Shown in pieces: positions 5,712 to 57,560 of a stretch of DNA of 64,000 nucleotides (its first letter is position 1; every line of letters starts with the position of its first letter). Position numbers and translations under genes: made by a program. The stretch lies in contig JANLFK010000007.1 in the NCBI GenBank assembly GCA_024655945.1, positions 1 through 64,000 on the forward strand. Reading direction: 5' to 3'. This DNA is from a candidate division KSB1 bacterium. Lineage in GTDB: Bacteria > Zhuqueibacterota > Zhuqueibacteria > JANLFK01 > Oleimicrobiaceae. The notes beneath the pieces were generated by a model, which was not told where the DNA came from, ran no database searches, and worked only from the letters and a program-made list of their open reading frames with translations.

Positions 5712-8700
5712 ATGGCGAACCTACTGACAAAGCTATTTGGCGACAAACACACGCGCGATGTGGCGCGCATCATGCCCATCGTGCAGCAGATCAACGCCAT
5801 CTACGAGACCTTGCACGAGCTCGCCGACGAGCAACTGCGCGACAAGACCAACCAGTTCCGCAGGCGCATTCAGGAAGCGACCGCCGAGGTGAGGGCCAAG
5901 CTGAATGAGCGGCGCGCCCTGCTGACCACCGACGCGATGGAGGGCGAGGAAGCGGTGCTCAAGGTGGACGCCGAGTCCTTACGCCAGGAAATCGCGGCCT
6001 TGGAGAAGGAAGAAAACGAGATCATCGCGCGTGTGCTGGATGAGATCCTCCCCGAGGCTTACGCGGTGGTCAAGGAGGCCTGCCGCCGGCTGGTGGGCAA
6101 GACCTGGAAGGTCTGCGACCACGACATCACCTGGGACATGGTGCCCTTTGACGTGCAGCTCATCGGCGCCGTGGTGCTCCACCAGGGCAAAATTGCGGAG
6201 ATGGCCACAGGCGAAGGCAAGACCTTGGTGGCCACGATGCCCCTCTACCTGAACGCCCTGGCCGGCAAAGGGGCGCACCTGGTGACGGTCAACGACTACC
6301 TGGCCAGGCGCGACTGCGAGTGGATGGGCGAAATCTACAAGTTCTTGGGCCTGACGGTACACTACATCGCCAGCGACATGGAGCCAGAGCGGCGGCGGCG
6401 CGCCTACAACTGTGATATCACCTACGGCACCAACAACGAATTTGGCTTCGACTACCTGCGCGACAACATGGCCATCCGCCGCGAGGACCAGGTGCAACGC
6501 GGCCATTACTATGCCATCGTCGACGAGGTGGACTCGGTGCTCATCGACGAGGCGCGCACGCCATTGATCATCTCCGGCGCCGTAGAACATTCCACCAACC
6601 TCTTTGCCGAGCTCAAGCCCCGCGTCGAGCAGTTGGTGAAGAGCCAGACTCTATTGGTCAACCGCCTGGTGGCCGAGGCCGAGCAGCTCCTGGAGAAGGG
6701 GCAAGAATACGAGGCAGGCATCAAGCTGCTGCAGGCGCTGCGCGGCGCGCCGAAAAACAAGCGGCTGGCCAAAATCCTGCAGGAAGTGGGCGTCAGGAGG
6801 CTCATCCAGAAGGTCGAGACCGACCACATGCGCGACAAGCGCATGCACGAGATCGACGAGGAGCTGTACTTCTCCATCGACGAGAAGAGCCATGTGATCG
6901 ACCTCACCGAGAAAGGGCGCCAGGCGCTGTCGCCCAACGACCCGGAGATGTTCGTCCTCCCGGACCTGGCCGAAGGCATGGGGCAGATCGAAAACGATCC
7001 CACGCTGTCGCCGGAAGAGAAGGCGGAGCGGAGGGCGCGTCTCGAGGAGGAGTACGGCATCAAGAGCGAGCGCATCCAGAACATCTCGCAGCTACTGCGT
7101 GCCTACTCCCTCTTCGAACGGGACGTCGAATACGTGGTCTCCGAGGACGGCCGGGTGATCATCGTCGACGAGTTCACCGGCCGGCTGATGCCGGGGCGGC
7201 GCTACAGCGACGGCCTGCACCAGGCCATCGAGGCCAAGGAGGGGGTGCGCATCGAGCGCGAAACGCAGACCCTGGCCACCATCACGCTGCAGAACTTTTT
7301 CCGCCTCTACCACAAATTGGCGGGCATGACCGGCACGGCGGTGACCGAGGCTGCGGAGTTTTGGGAGATCTACAAGCTCGACGTGGTGGTCATCCCCACC
7401 AACGAGCCGGTACGCCGCATCGACTATGAGGACCGCATCTACCGCACCAAGCGGGAGAAGTACAACGCGGTCATCGAGGAGATTGCGGCCATGCATGCGG
7501 CGCGTCGTCCGGTGCTGGTGGGTACCGTCTCGGTGGAGGTGTCCGAGACGCTGAGCCGCATGCTCAAGCGGCGGGGCATCCCGCACAATGTGCTGAACGC
7601 AAAGCATCACCAGCGCGAGGCGGAGATTATCGCCCGTGCCGGGCAGCCGGGGGCCGTCACCATCGCCACCAACATGGCCGGCCGCGGCACGGACATCAAG
7701 CTTGGCGCCGGAGTAGTCAAGCACCCTAATTGCGCGCTGGTGCGCCCGGACCCAGGGTCTGAGCCGTGCCCGTACCTGGAGGAGTACGACTGCTACAACG
7801 AGGTGCCGTGTGGGTTGCACATCCTGGGCACCGAGCGGCACGAGGCACGGCGCATCGATCGCCAGCTGCGCGGGCGGGCGGGTCGGCAAGGCGACCCTGG
7901 CTCCTCTCGCTTCTACTTGTCCTTAGAAGACGATCTCATGCGCCTGTTCGGCTCGGAGCGCATCGCCGGCATCATGGACCGGCTGGGGGTGCAGGAAGGC
8001 GAGGTCATCACCCATCCCATGGTCTCCAAGTCCATCGAGCGGGCGCAAAAGCGGGTGGAGGAGCACAATTTTGACATCCGCAAGCACCTCCTGGAATATG
8101 ACGACGTGATGAACCAGCAGCGCGAAGTGGTCTACAACCGCCGCAACTATGCCCTCGGCGGCCAAAACCTGCGCGAAGACGTCCTGGAGATGATGGAGGA
8201 GGTGATCGAAGACCGCGTCGATGAACACGCCGCGGAGAGCCCATATCCTGAGGACTGGAACTGGAACGGCCTCAACCAGGACTTGCGGCGCGTCTTCTTG
8301 ACCACGGTGACGCGCGAGGAGTTCGAGGGCGATCGCATCAGCCGCGAGGAGCTCATCGACAGGATCCGCGGCAAGACGATGGCCCTCTACGAGGCCAAGG
8401 AGAAGGCCCTGGGTGGAGGCCTCATGCGCCAGTTGGAGCGCTTTGCCATTCTACGTGCCATCGACGAGCAGTGGCGGGACCACCTCTATTCCATGGACGT
8501 GATGAAGGAGGGCATCGGCCTGCGCGCCTACGGGCAGAAGGACCCACTGATCGAGTACAAGAGCGAGGCCTTCAAGATGTTCTCCGAAATGTTGGCGCGT
8601 ACCAACGAGGCGGTCTTGGAGATGGTGTTCAAGGCGCAGGTGCAGGTGGCGCCTCCCCAGCCAGTGCGCCGCATGCCGGCCCAGGTAAGCGCCGTTCACG

Positions 8701-9475: not shown

Positions 9476-11752
9476 ATGGCAGGTGACAAGAAATCCCTGG
9501 TAGTTGTCGAGTCCTTTGCCAAGACCAAGACCATCAATGCCTTTCTGGGCGAGCAGTTCACGGTGCTCCCTTCGGCTGGGCACGTGGTGGATTTGCCCAA
9601 GAGCAAGCTTGGCGTGGATATCGACAACGGCTTTGAGCCGCAATACCGGCCTCTGCGCGATCGCCAAAAGGTGGTAAAGCAGCTCAAAGAGGCCGCGGCA
9701 GAAGCTGAGCAGGTCGTCCTGGCCACCGACCCGGACCGCGAAGGCGAGGCTATTGCCTGGCATTTAGGCGAGATCCTCAAGAAAGCCAACCCCCATATCT
9801 CGCGCATCACCTTCAACGAGATCACCCGCGACGCGGTCCTGCGCGCTCTGGAGAGCCCGCGGGCCATCGATCTGAATTTGGTGGAGGCACAGAAGGCGCG
9901 ACGCGTCATGGACCGGCTCGTCGGCTACCAGGTGGGGCCAATTCTTTGGCGCACCGTCTGTGCCGGTCTCAGCGCCGGCCGAGTGCAGTCGGTGGCGCTG
10001 CGCCTCATCTGCGAGCGGGAGGAGGAAATCGAGGCGTTCGTCCCGCAGGAGTATTGGCTCATTGACGGGACCTTTCAGGGACGCCGCACGGCGCCGTTTA
10101 CGGCGCGTCTCACCAAGGTTGCCAACGAGAAACCGCACATCCCTGATGAGCAGTCGGCAGTCACCCTGGTGGAGAATATCCGACGCCAGGAGTGGACGGT
10201 CAAGGATATCCGCAAGAACGAGGTGCAGCGGCAACCTGCGCCGCCGTTCACCACCAGCACCCTTCAGCAAGACGCGGCACGGCGCTTTGGCTTTTCGACC
10301 AAGAGAATCATGGCCATTGCCCAGCAGCTTTACGAGGGCGTGGAAATTGGCCCTGGAGGGCCGGTAGGCCTCATCACCTACATGCGTACCGACTCGGTGC
10401 GGGTGGCCAATGAGGCAGTGGCGGAGGCGCGTACCTTCATCGCCAGCAACTTTGGTGTCGAGTACCTGGCCCCACAGCCGCGGCACTTTGCCGCGCGCAA
10501 GGGCGCCCAGGATGCACACGAGGCCATTCGGCCGACTTCCGTCAAGCGCACCCCTCGGTCGCTGCGCAAGTACCTCAGTGAGGAGCAATACCAGCTCTAC
10601 GAGTTGATCTGGCAGCGATTTGTGGCGAGCCAGATGGCTCCTGCTCGCCTGCTGCAGACGACCGTGGACATTGTGAGCGGCAACGACGAAATGTACCTGT
10701 TCCGGGCAACCGGCTCAGAGGTTTTGTTCAGGGGGTTTCTGCAGGCCTACGAGGAAGCGCCCCGCGAGGAAGAAGACCAGGAGCGCGAACCGACTACCAA
10801 AGTGCCCGAGGAGCTGACAGTGGGCGAGCGGGTGATCCTCTTGGACGTGACCCCGAGCCAGCACTTTACCAAACCGCCGCCGCGCTACACAGAAGCCAGC
10901 CTGGTCAAGGCACTGGACAGTCTGGGCATTGGCAGGCCCAGCACCTACGCAGTCATCGTGAGCACCATCCTTGAGCGCAATTACGTGGAGAAGCGACAGC
11001 GCCAGTTGGTGCCCACCGAGCTGGGCCGCACCGTCAACAAAATCCTGGTGGCCAACTTCCCGGACATCTTCGAGGTCAAGTTCACCGCGCGCATGGAAGC
11101 GGAACTGGACGACATCGAGGGGGGCAAGAAGAACTTCCGGCAAGTAGTGGAGGGCTTCTACGGGCCTTTCCGGCGGGCGCTGGCGGCAGCCGAAGGCAGG
11201 CAGGTCGAGATTCGGGAGAGCCTGCAGGAGAAGACAGAAGAGCGCTGTCCGATCTGTGGGAAGGAGTTGGTCATCCGCTGGGGGCGGCACGGACGCTACA
11301 TGGCCTGCTCTGATTACCCACGTTGCCGCTTTTCCAAGGCGCTCGAACAGGAAGGCCTAGCCAGCACCGAGAGGTGTGAGCTGTGTGGCGGCCCGATGGT
11401 GGTCAAGACCAGTCGTTTCGGGCGCTTTCTGGCCTGTTCCGCGTACCCGAAGTGCAAAAACGCCAAGCCGTTCAAGATCGGCGTCAAATGCCCGAAGCCC
11501 GGCTGCGACGGTGAGGTGGTGGAGCGCAAGTCCCGACGCGGGCGCACCTTCTACGGCTGTAGCCGCTACCCTGAATGTGATTTCGTCTCCTGGCAGGAGC
11601 CTGTAAGCGGGCCATGTCCTTCTTGTGGGAACAATGTGCTCTACAAGCGGTATACAAAAGCAAAGGGAAGCGTGCTCCACTGCGCACAGTGCGAACAGGA
11701 TTTTGCGGCCGACCTGGTGAGGTCGCCGAGCGCGATATCTTCTGATGACTGA
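9476..11752 (+). CDS. topA: DNA topoisomerase I
   Basis: A type IA topoisomerase that relaxes negative supercoils; 758 residues. The TOPRIM domain is at the start (VVVESFAKTKTI, later ATDPDREGEAIAWHL with the metal-binding DxD-type acids). SAGRVQSVALR follows near residue 167, and the catalytic tyrosine is Y302 in LITYMRTDSVRV. After residue ~580 come four cysteine zinc-ribbon repeats (CPIC, CELC, CPKPGC, CPSC, most closed by a CSxYPxC-like half), a usual TopA tail. The start ATG at 9476 lies 21 bases after the smg-like stop. The 3' end overlaps the recombinase gene by 8 bases. Confidence 0.97.
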   Translation: MAGDKKSLVVVESFAKTKTINAFLGEQFTVLPSAGHVVDLPKSKLGVDIDNGFEPQYRPLRDRQKVVKQLKEAAAEAEQVVLATDPDREGEAIAWHLGEILKKANPHISRITFNEITRDAVLRALESPRAIDLNLVEAQKARRVMDRLVGYQVGPILWRTVCAGLSAGRVQSVALRLICEREEEIEAFVPQEYWLIDGTFQGRRTAPFTARLTKVANEKPHIPDEQSAVTLVENIRRQEWTVKDIRKNEVQRQPAPPFTTSTLQQDAARRFGFSTKRIMAIAQQLYEGVEIGPGGPVGLITYMRTDSVRVANEAVAEARTFIASNFGVEYLAPQPRHFAARKGAQDAHEAIRPTSVKRTPRSLRKYLSEEQYQLYELIWQRFVASQMAPARLLQTTVDIVSGNDEMYLFRATGSEVLFRGFLQAYEEAPREEEDQEREPTTKVPEELTVGERVILLDVTPSQHFTKPPPRYTEASLVKALDSLGIGRPSTYAVIVSTILERNYVEKRQRQLVPTELGRTVNKILVANFPDIFEVKFTARMEAELDDIEGGKKNFRQVVEGFYGPFRRALAAAEGRQVEIRESLQEKTEERCPICGKELVIRWGRHGRYMACSDYPRCRFSKALEQEGLASTERCELCGGPMVVKTSRFGRFLACSAYPKCKNAKPFKIGVKCPKPGCDGEVVERKSRRGRTFYGCSRYPECDFVSWQEPVSGPCPSCGNNVLYKRYTKAKGSVLHCAQCEQDFAADLVRSPSAISSDD

Positions 11753-56510: not shown

Positions 56511-56586
56511 AACCTCCGGGAGGTTGGCCCACCACGCCAGCTTGGCCTGATGTCCCCTACCGGGCTCGCAAGAACCTCCCGGAGGT
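56511..56586 (+). repeat. REPIN-like repeat, copy 1
   Basis: AACCTCCGGGAGGTT (56511-56525), 47-base core, AACCTCCCGGAGGT (56573-56586). The two ends are reverse complements of each other and each is nearly palindromic. Confidence 0.85.
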
Positions 56587-56617
56587 CGGGCCTCCCCCCA
56601 AAGTCCCTGCAGCTTAC

Positions 56618-56693
56618 ACCTCCGGGAGGTTGGCCGACCACGCCAACGTGGCCCAATCCCTGCTGGCGAGCCCACAAGAACCTCCCGGAGGTT
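56618..56693 (+). repeat. REPIN-like repeat, copy 2
   Basis: Left end ACCTCCGGGAGGTT (56618-56631), 47-base core, right end AACCTCCCGGAGGTT (56679-56693). The core contains CCACG-CCAA-CGTGG, a small internal stem. Confidence 0.85.
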
Positions 56694-56712
56694 TCTCCCT
56701 TGCGTCACCGAA

Positions 56713-56789
56713 AACCTCGTGGAGGTTGCTCCACCACGTCAACTTCGCGCAGTGTCTCCTGGCGAGCCTGCGAGAGCCTCCCGGAGCTT
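56713..56789 (+). repeat. REPIN-like repeat, copy 3 (divergent)
   Basis: AACCTCGTGGAGGTT (56713-56727), 47-base core, AGCCTCCCGGAGCTT (56775-56789). Substitutions in both ends and core. A half-unit AACCTCCAAG follows at 56805-56814. Confidence 0.8.
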
Positions 56790-56879
56790 CCCACGCGCCC
56801 CCAGAACCTCCAAGAAGAGTTCAGTCGATGAAATACCGCCGGACTCCGTCGCGAGCCGCTTTGTCAACTGGGTACTCCT

Positions 56880-57398
56880 TCACAAACCGCTCATAGTCCT
56901 CCGGACGCGGGAAGTAGTAAGCGATAAAGGCCCGGTCCTGCAAGGTGCCCTCCCGTTACCTACGCACTCCAGGTAGTTGGAAAAGGCCCAGTCCTCGGGG
57001 TTCCTGACGAGGCCGGCAACCACCGGGTTCAGGTGGATGTAGCGACAGAGATGGACGAGGTATTCCTCCCTTTCGACTTGCACGTGGAGGAATCTCCCCT
57101 GAAAGAGCGTTCCGGAACGCCCGAGTTGTCGATTAACAGCCTGGACGTAGGTGTTGAAGACCACGCTGATGAAACGCGAGACGGCTGCTTGCCCGTCCTG
57201 ACGCACGAGGAGGTGGTAGTGGTTCGGCATGAGGCAGTAGGCGATGACGGCGATGAGATGGGCGCGGGCGTACTTTTCTATGAGCCTGGTACAGAACAGG
57301 AAGTTTTCGTCGGAAAAGAAGATGTTCTGGCGGCTGACGCCGCGGTTGTAGAGATGGTAATAGTTCCCTGGTGCAAAGACTCCGTGGCGGACAGGCAT
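56880..57398 (-). CDS. REP-associated tyrosine transposase (RAYT), frame-broken
   Basis: 172 residues in this frame. Y1/HUH transposase of the IS200/RAYT group: metal-binding HYH at H60/H62 in CLMPNHYHLLV, catalytic Tyr Y120 in CRYIHLNPVVAGL, and NPEDWAFSNYLE. RAYT enzymes bind and mobilise REP palindromes; here REPIN-like repeats flank the gene. After about residue 147 the frame loses similarity; the next frame down continues EGTLQDRAFIAYYFPRPEDY and on to a stop at 56821, an expected RAYT tail. One base missing near 56957 explains this, so intact extent would be 56821-57398. Start ATG 57398; the ribosome site is weak. Confidence 0.85.
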   Translation of the reverse strand: MPVRHGVFAPGNYYHLYNRGVSRQNIFFSDENFLFCTRLIEKYARAHLIAVIAYCLMPNHYHLLVRQDGQAAVSRFISVVFNTYVQAVNRQLGRSGTLFQGRFLHVQVEREEYLVHLCRYIHLNPVVAGLVRNPEDWAFSNYLECVGNGRAPCRTGPLSLTTSRVRRTMSGL

Positions 57399-57484
57399 GT
57401 GGAAAACCTCCGTATTGTCTCAACGCCCCTCGTGGGGTACACCACCGCCCCAAGAACTGCGAGAGGTCCGCCCCCGCCGCCCAC

Positions 57485-57560
57485 ACCTCCGGGAGGTTGG
57501 CCGACTACGCCAACGTGGCCCAATGTCTGCTGGCGGGCCCGCAAGAACCTCCCGGAGGTT
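57485..57560 (+). repeat. REPIN-like repeat, copy 4
   Basis: ACCTCCGGGAGGTT (57485-57498), 47-base core, AACCTCCCGGAGGTT (57546-57560). Same orientation as copies 1-3 and closest to copy 2 in the core; it lies on the other side of the RAYT gene. Confidence 0.85.

Follow-up and report, generated by a model that had tools for sequence, protein, structure and literature searches.

Few transposases are thought to have turned into single-copy host genes; RAYTs count among them. In gammaproteobacteria and Nostoc, a single-copy RAYT is accompanied by REPINs, i.e. palindromes arranged as inverted doublets with near-fixed spacing, which are dispersed between genes, cluster at the RAYT and carry a palindrome that differs with the RAYT (PMC3116915; PMC2817692). 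RAYTs or REPs have already been reported in Cyanobacteria, Bacteroidetes, Chloroflexi and Planctomycetes as well (PMC6006769; PMC3733652); contrary to what the preliminary description of the locus treated here had implied, the occurrence of such a system outside gammaproteobacteria is thus not new in itself. The second largest RAYT subclass has no REP partner in published classifications: this is TnpAY1 subclass 2.1, equivalent to RAYT group 1 of Bertels, whose 2.1.2 part occurs in a wide range of phyla and for which no REP-like sequences were found in a search that required GTAG or GTGG and was complemented by manual inspection (PMC6006769). Its members average 238 aa, end in an HTH tail and share a motif set comprising NH[YF]H, FQ in place of WQ, and YIHLNP (Table 1 of PMC6006769). 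A recent survey of REPs (PMC12306157) did not treat RAYTs.

Two other described arrangements invite comparison. TIRtrons, in which a RAYT-like gene (TIRYT) is flanked by non-GTAG repeats that are in some cases self-complementary and sometimes form a moderately abundant family, are described as HTH-bearing proteins enclosed by long terminal inverted repeats in which a GGGGWSAS motif is frequent (PMC3733652). Elements of the IS200/IS605 family, such as IS608 and ISDra2, share with the present case the HUH Y1 fold, palindromic (here putative) recognition hairpins and the lack of a target duplication. How does a RAYT that carries the motifs of the REP-less subclass, and nevertheless sits among palindromic doublets, compare with these systems?

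The RAYT gene and its flanking units

Within the window, i.e. the whole stretch of 64,000 nt that was analysed, a Y1 transposase ORF (56880-57398, minus strand, an open frame of 172 aa) is flanked by four REPIN-like units of 77 nt, each consisting of 15 + 47 + 15 nt, which lie in one shared orientation on both sides of the gene:

56511 to 56587, plus strand: REPIN-like unit 1, with arm AACCTCCGGGAGGTT at 56511-56525, a 47-nt core and arm AACCTCCCGGAGGTC at 56573-56587; DNA fold z = -4.1; covariance model E 9.5e-19
56617 to 56693, plus strand: REPIN-like unit 2, with arms at 56617-56631 and 56679-56693 and a 47-nt core; fold z = -6.4
56713 to 56789, plus strand: REPIN-like unit 3, with degenerate arms (2 + 2 mismatches) and a 47-nt core; fold z = -0.6; covariance model E 4e-14
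57484 to 57560, plus strand: REPIN-like unit 4, with arms at 57484-57498 and 57546-57560 and a 47-nt core; fold z = -4.3; covariance model E 1.9e-18
56952 to 57398, minus strand: RAYT catalytic core, 149 aa, with HUH motif NHYH (H60, H62) and Y motif YIHLNP (Y120); Pfam Y1_Tnp 39.4 bits
56824 to 56955, minus strand: RAYT C-terminal tail, 44 aa (REGTLQD...RRYFID), in another reading frame, delineated with a profile of relatives

The four copies, their common orientation and their position on both sides of the RAYT gene had all been noted before and are confirmed, with coordinates that now delimit 77-nt units with 15-nt arms. Each unit is composed of a left arm AACCTCC(G)GGAGGTT, the 47-nt core and a right arm AACCTCC(C)GGAGGTT; every arm is an odd palindrome of 15 nt, and its central base (G on the left, C on the right) is the sole difference between left and right. 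A single arm can fold alone into a 6-bp stem with a 3-nt loop, or else the left arm can pair with the right one. Compared with shuffled sequences, units 1, 2 and 4 fold far better as DNA, whereas the degenerate unit 3 has lost its hairpin and folds no better. Unit 4 lies 85 bp upstream of the RAYT start and shares 90% identity with unit 2 across 89 nt. The block formed by the RAYT and the repeats has a polysaccharide deacetylase gene on one side and an LPG-synthase-TM gene on the other, and a search of the region for intrinsic terminators and Rfam families returned no terminator-like site and no significant family, only weak matches to microRNA models far under the cut-off.

The gene product is a RAYT, i.e. 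a Y1_Tnp protein with the HUH motif and a single catalytic tyrosine that is nearer to TnpAREP than to IS200 by profile, fold and tree. The best NCBIfam model is REP_Tyr_transpos (NF047646; 78.6-79.2 bits, E 4e-22, just under the curated cut-off of 80), as against an E value of only 0.04 for the IS200 model, and a profile search of the PDB with the family profile gave E 1e-8 for E. coli TnpAREP (4er8) and 0.01 for ISDra2. An AF2 model of the 149-aa core (pLDDT 93.5) again finds its best match in 4er8 (TM 0.82), with IS608 and ISDra2 at 0.60 or less, and H60, H62 and Y120 are invariant across the alignments. An IQ-TREE phylogeny groups the window RAYT with others in a 99-sequence clade (UFBoot 99) that excludes both IS200 and E. 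coli RayT (TnpAREP). This bears out both its identification as a RAYT, for which phylogenetic placement had been proposed as the check, and the earlier suggestion of a separate lineage, here one apart from TnpAREP and IS200. An IS200/IS605 origin is ruled out by tree and fold; unlike genes of that family, moreover, this one occurs outside any repeated IS and is the only Y1_Tnp in the genome.

Most members of the clade are about 190 aa long and are devoid of the HTH tail of the RAYTs adjoining them in the tree; the window RAYT has a short tail without HTH, and no HTH domain was detected in a full-length relative, whereas an outgroup RAYT has one. The branching order inside the clade is poorly resolved, and its position as sister to HTH-bearing RAYTs has a support of only 44. 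The subclass 2.1 motifs are represented here by NHYH, FQ and YIHLNP, but with a length of about 190 aa, no HTH and REPIN-like doublets alongside. The window RAYT thus appears 2.1-like at the motif level only, and membership in 2.1 is not claimed, given the missing HTH tail and a tree that does not include the reference sequences of PMC6006769.

When aligned to the profile of relatives, positions 1-148 match the main frame and positions 149-191 match 56955-56824 in another frame (E 1e-8), which places a frame break near 56955; the open frame continues past the break to 56880. Judging from these matches, either the RAYT would be frame-broken or the draft assembly carries an error.

A dispersed population of units

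The host genome is a draft of 3.94 Mb in 26 contigs (97.7% complete). With at most one mismatch the palindrome occurs 32 times in it, as against 0 for a reversed control pattern, and with at most two mismatches 48 times as against 8, so its abundance is not due to chance. Pairing of arms yields 17 full units over eight contigs, and a covariance model built from them recovers all 17 and, in addition, C9:3457-3535 (E 3e-8), i.e. 18 units at E<1e-7, besides three further weak candidates. The whole-genome search for the unit, which had been recommended at the outset, has thus uncovered a REPIN-like population of 18 dispersed units with a single-copy RAYT. The core length of 47 nt that had been regarded as invariant is exact in the four window copies and two others, but does not hold genome-wide: among the 17 units, the core measures 46 nt in two, 47 in six, 48 in seven, 49 in one and 50 in one, with whole units of 76-80 nt and arm starts 61-65 nt apart. 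The core sequence is homologous between units. Several units are degenerate and many arms perfect; covariation between the arms is not significant within this genome, because the arms barely vary.

All copies on C3 lie between genes. At the other loci, the ORFs that overlap most units lack the coding periodicity or base-position bias of adjacent genes, and the C19 unit overlaps the final 14 bases of a gene; as far as examined, the units therefore look extragenic and situated in non-coding stretches. Target-site duplications of 2 bp or more were found at 0 of 17 units (shuffled expectation 1.2), in keeping with an HUH Y1 enzyme. A consistent GT[AG]G foot is lacking among the 17 units (GTAG or GTGG lies within 8 nt outside the arm in only 3 of 34 arms), and the CGTC/TGTC/CCTC end tag, a criterion for CGTC REPs, occurs in only 2 of 34 outer flanks. 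The preliminary description mentions neither the missing GTAG foot nor the break in the RAYT frame. A stretch C-R-A-R located 5' of the right arm is conserved, its C and A being present in 17/17 units; it may represent a guide-like foot, though merely as a lead, since the left arm has no counterpart.

Compared with the REPINs of gammaproteobacteria and Nostoc, then, the present system resembles them in its layout but differs in lacking the GT[AG]G foot, in having perfect odd palindromes of 15 nt, in belonging to another RAYT lineage and in counting about 18 copies rather than hundreds. As for TIRtrons, the doublets here are repeated, inverted and in the same orientation on both sides of the gene, and their arms lack GGGGWSAS, so the locus does not qualify as one; TIRYTs are nonetheless the nearest described arrangement, and part of the present finding is foreshadowed by them.

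A second palindromic repeat, CAGGCC.GAGGCCTG, embedded in GCAGGCC.GAGGCCTGCG.ACCCAGG, was seen in L018 (G000:C3) at 5747-5761, 10037-10051 and 10165-10179; it adjoins AACCTCC units in the C3 cluster only, with no exact copies in the other regions examined.

Origin of the units and rival explanations

Two sister genomes offer a view of the locus in other states. In one of the same genus (G002, about 73% identical here), only 143 bp separate the two flanking genes, as opposed to 1132 bp in the window, none of these palindromes occur in the genome, and a RAYT search returned only a distant match; this short form is an alternative allele of the RAYT locus in a sister species. In the other (G001), where no RAYT match was found, three of the C3-cluster units are missing and a fourth is present as a decayed copy, with eight weak matches to the covariance model (best E 1.4e-6). 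At these loci both share 70-88% identity with this genome, too little for junctions to be resolved at single-base precision, and with two sister species gain and loss at the RAYT locus are inseparable. The pattern would fit units that spread alongside a RAYT and decay without it.

These observations are best explained by a single-copy RAYT with its own REPIN-like population, the units being non-autonomous mobile repeats, a reading that we hold with good confidence. By its sequence features it is a RAYT/REPIN system, albeit a non-canonical one, with no GT[AG]G foot, with perfect odd palindromes and with a RAYT that has the 2.1 motifs but no C-terminal HTH, and the unit is probably spread by that RAYT. 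We infer that the RAYT recognises, cleaves and transposes the units, and that it does so by a single-strand route. In single-stranded DNA, each of the two inverted copies of the 15-nt palindrome that enclose the near-fixed-length core of the 76-80-nt unit can form a 6-bp hairpin with a 3-nt loop (AACCTC-CGG/CCG-GAGGTT), or the arms can pair into a stem of 14-15 bp. The RAYT, an HUH nuclease with one catalytic tyrosine, would bind the palindrome hairpins, cut single strands at the borders of a unit and join them again, whereby units would be copied or moved to new intergenic sites. It would act in trans, its own gene not being moved as an IS; the alternative allele and the decay of units in a genome without a RAYT bear on such mobilisation only indirectly.

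Could the hairpins rather serve the host, as terminators, stabilisers of mRNA 3' ends or protein-binding sites maintained by selection, with the RAYT among them by coincidence? The intergenic position and mostly strong folding of the units would suit such roles, which REPs have acquired elsewhere (general knowledge; PMC3733652). Yet the lack of any terminator-like site or significant Rfam family in the region, the position of units on either side of the RAYT, their clustering, their absence or decay in sister species without this RAYT, and the different palindrome that accompanies each RAYT lineage among the relatives (see below) all speak against selection for host hairpins, which we regard as improbable. 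We give still less credence to a MITE family moved by another, DDE-type transposase, for which the 15-bp inverted arms would be terminal inverted repeats and the RAYT a bystander. Unit size, inverted ends and conserved core would accommodate it equally well, but the count of 0 in 17 for target-site duplications, the palindromic nature of the arms themselves, for which DDE ends have no need, and the recurrence of the RAYT association over phyla with changed arms do not.

A somewhat different matter is whether the locus is a relic, i.e. an extinct RAYT/REPIN system with a RAYT pseudogene and repeats that decay neutrally. The question here is one of activity today, and a relic would not conflict with the preferred explanation as to origin, so that the confidences placed in the two overlap; we consider it a genuine possibility, if a rather doubtful one. 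The frame break in the RAYT tail, the several degenerate units and the low copy number point towards it, whereas the intact catalytic core with its high-confidence predicted fold, as well as the 90% identity of units 2 and 4 and the many perfect arms, which suggest recent activity, point away from it, and the frame break may be an assembly error in the MAG. Unless it is such an error, the activity of the RAYT and its REPIN-like units may have ended already, because the tail is out of frame.

Related RAYTs with doublets of their own

Relatives were sought in 99 related genomes and a named genome collection, all of the genomes being drafts. The closest RAYTs, at 43-62% identity, belong to KSB1-type genomes and to Planctomycetota, Cyanobacteria, Chloroflexota, Ignavibacteria, Bacteroidota, Cloacimonadota and others; a KSB1 MAG (L129) has a RAYT fragment that agrees in position and identity with that of a same-class genome (G024), which makes a KSB1 affiliation of the genome under study likely, though short of proof. 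The FCB-type host envisaged in the preliminary description is plausible, the KSB1 MAG appearing to be one of the same-class genomes.

The 540 kb of sequence around 109 related RAYTs contained 209 inverted pairs, compared with 3 after shuffling. Under a strict definition, which placed the doublet within 1 kb of the RAYT and demanded that the arm itself form a hairpin (shuffle rate 0.5%), doublets accompany 33 of the 83 short RAYTs in the clade, compared with 3 of 36 Y1 genes of other types (p = 4e-4, an optimistic value given that clade members are non-independent); the comparison is descriptive rather than blind, as neighbourhoods were chosen in the wake of the RAYT search and the definition of a doublet was fixed once examples had been seen. 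The palindromes beside related RAYTs differ by RAYT lineage within an analogous doublet layout, and their similarity declines with RAYT distance (20 of 2000 permutations were as extreme). Amplification of the three palindromes tested genome-wide is seen chiefly where they also flank the RAYT of the genome: GGTGCGWCGCACC, which flanks the RAYT in both G061 (226 copies vs 0 in the control) and G005 (49 vs 2); AACCTCSGAGGTT in G099 (55 vs 0), with a variant in G105 (39 vs 4); and AACCTCCSGGAGGTT, amplified in the genome under study and also in G057 and G077. Cognacy is inexact: G105 carries many AGTGCGTCGCACC copies, yet its RAYT is flanked by AAACCTCCGAGGTCT; matches to the first of the patterns above number 50 there (9 in the control). 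Cores measure 48 nt in G052, 47-48 in G057 and 53 in G005. For G061, 20 pairs were listed, among them overlapping pairs and pairs formed between units; the core is exactly 51 nt long in 13 of these, and some of the 13 cores are unrelated in sequence. Against the reading of the window locus as a RAYT with its own REPIN-like units stand the frame break in the RAYT, the non-significant covariation of the arms, this inexact cognacy, the strict doublets in only 33 of 83 clade members and the 18 copies, a low number for a REPIN population.

It is conceivable, and in our judgement nearly an even matter, that the short HTH-less RAYT clade is a RAYT/REPIN lineage in its own right that extends across many phyla (KSB1, Ignavibacteria/Bacteroidota, Cyanobacteria, Chloroflexota, Neomarinimicrobiota and others) and recognises perfect odd palindromes without a GTAG guide. 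In its units, length would be under tighter constraint (core 47-53 nt across KSB1-class genomes whose palindromes are unrelated) than the sequence of the core. If so, an overlooked REPIN world would accompany RAYTs so far classed as REP-less. The present case and its relatives offer a REPIN partner, in several phyla, for a lineage with the motifs of that subclass, and show that systems of this sort need not have the GTAG guide. The differing palindromes of related RAYTs lend themselves, as natural pairs, to tests of enzyme recognition, and how far REPINs depend on a RAYT can be gauged by comparing sister genomes that have one with those that do not.

Several further arrays were encountered among the relatives. 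In an Ignavibacteria MAG (L154, 2636-3752) and in G099, tandem AACCTCCGAGGTT doublets with alternating short spacers surround a related RAYT; these palindromes number 55 genome-wide vs 0 in the control, many pairs being just 5 nt apart. In three Cyanobacteria (L112, L114, L098), doublet arrays of AGAAACC(G/C)GGTTTCT lie beside related RAYTs and may connect the abundant palindromes of cyanobacteria with RAYTs of this lineage. In G061, many palindrome copies are situated 40-56 bases from contig ends (e.g. C23:43-55, C28:40-52, C60:40-52), as if the assembly had broken at repeats, so their number is probably underestimated. The G061 units in L226, L231, L232, L235 and L236 are conserved outside the arms as well (TGGGAYAGAAYC ... 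TTCCACCCATAA), and the repeated unit there thus extends past the palindromes, unlike that of the window genome.
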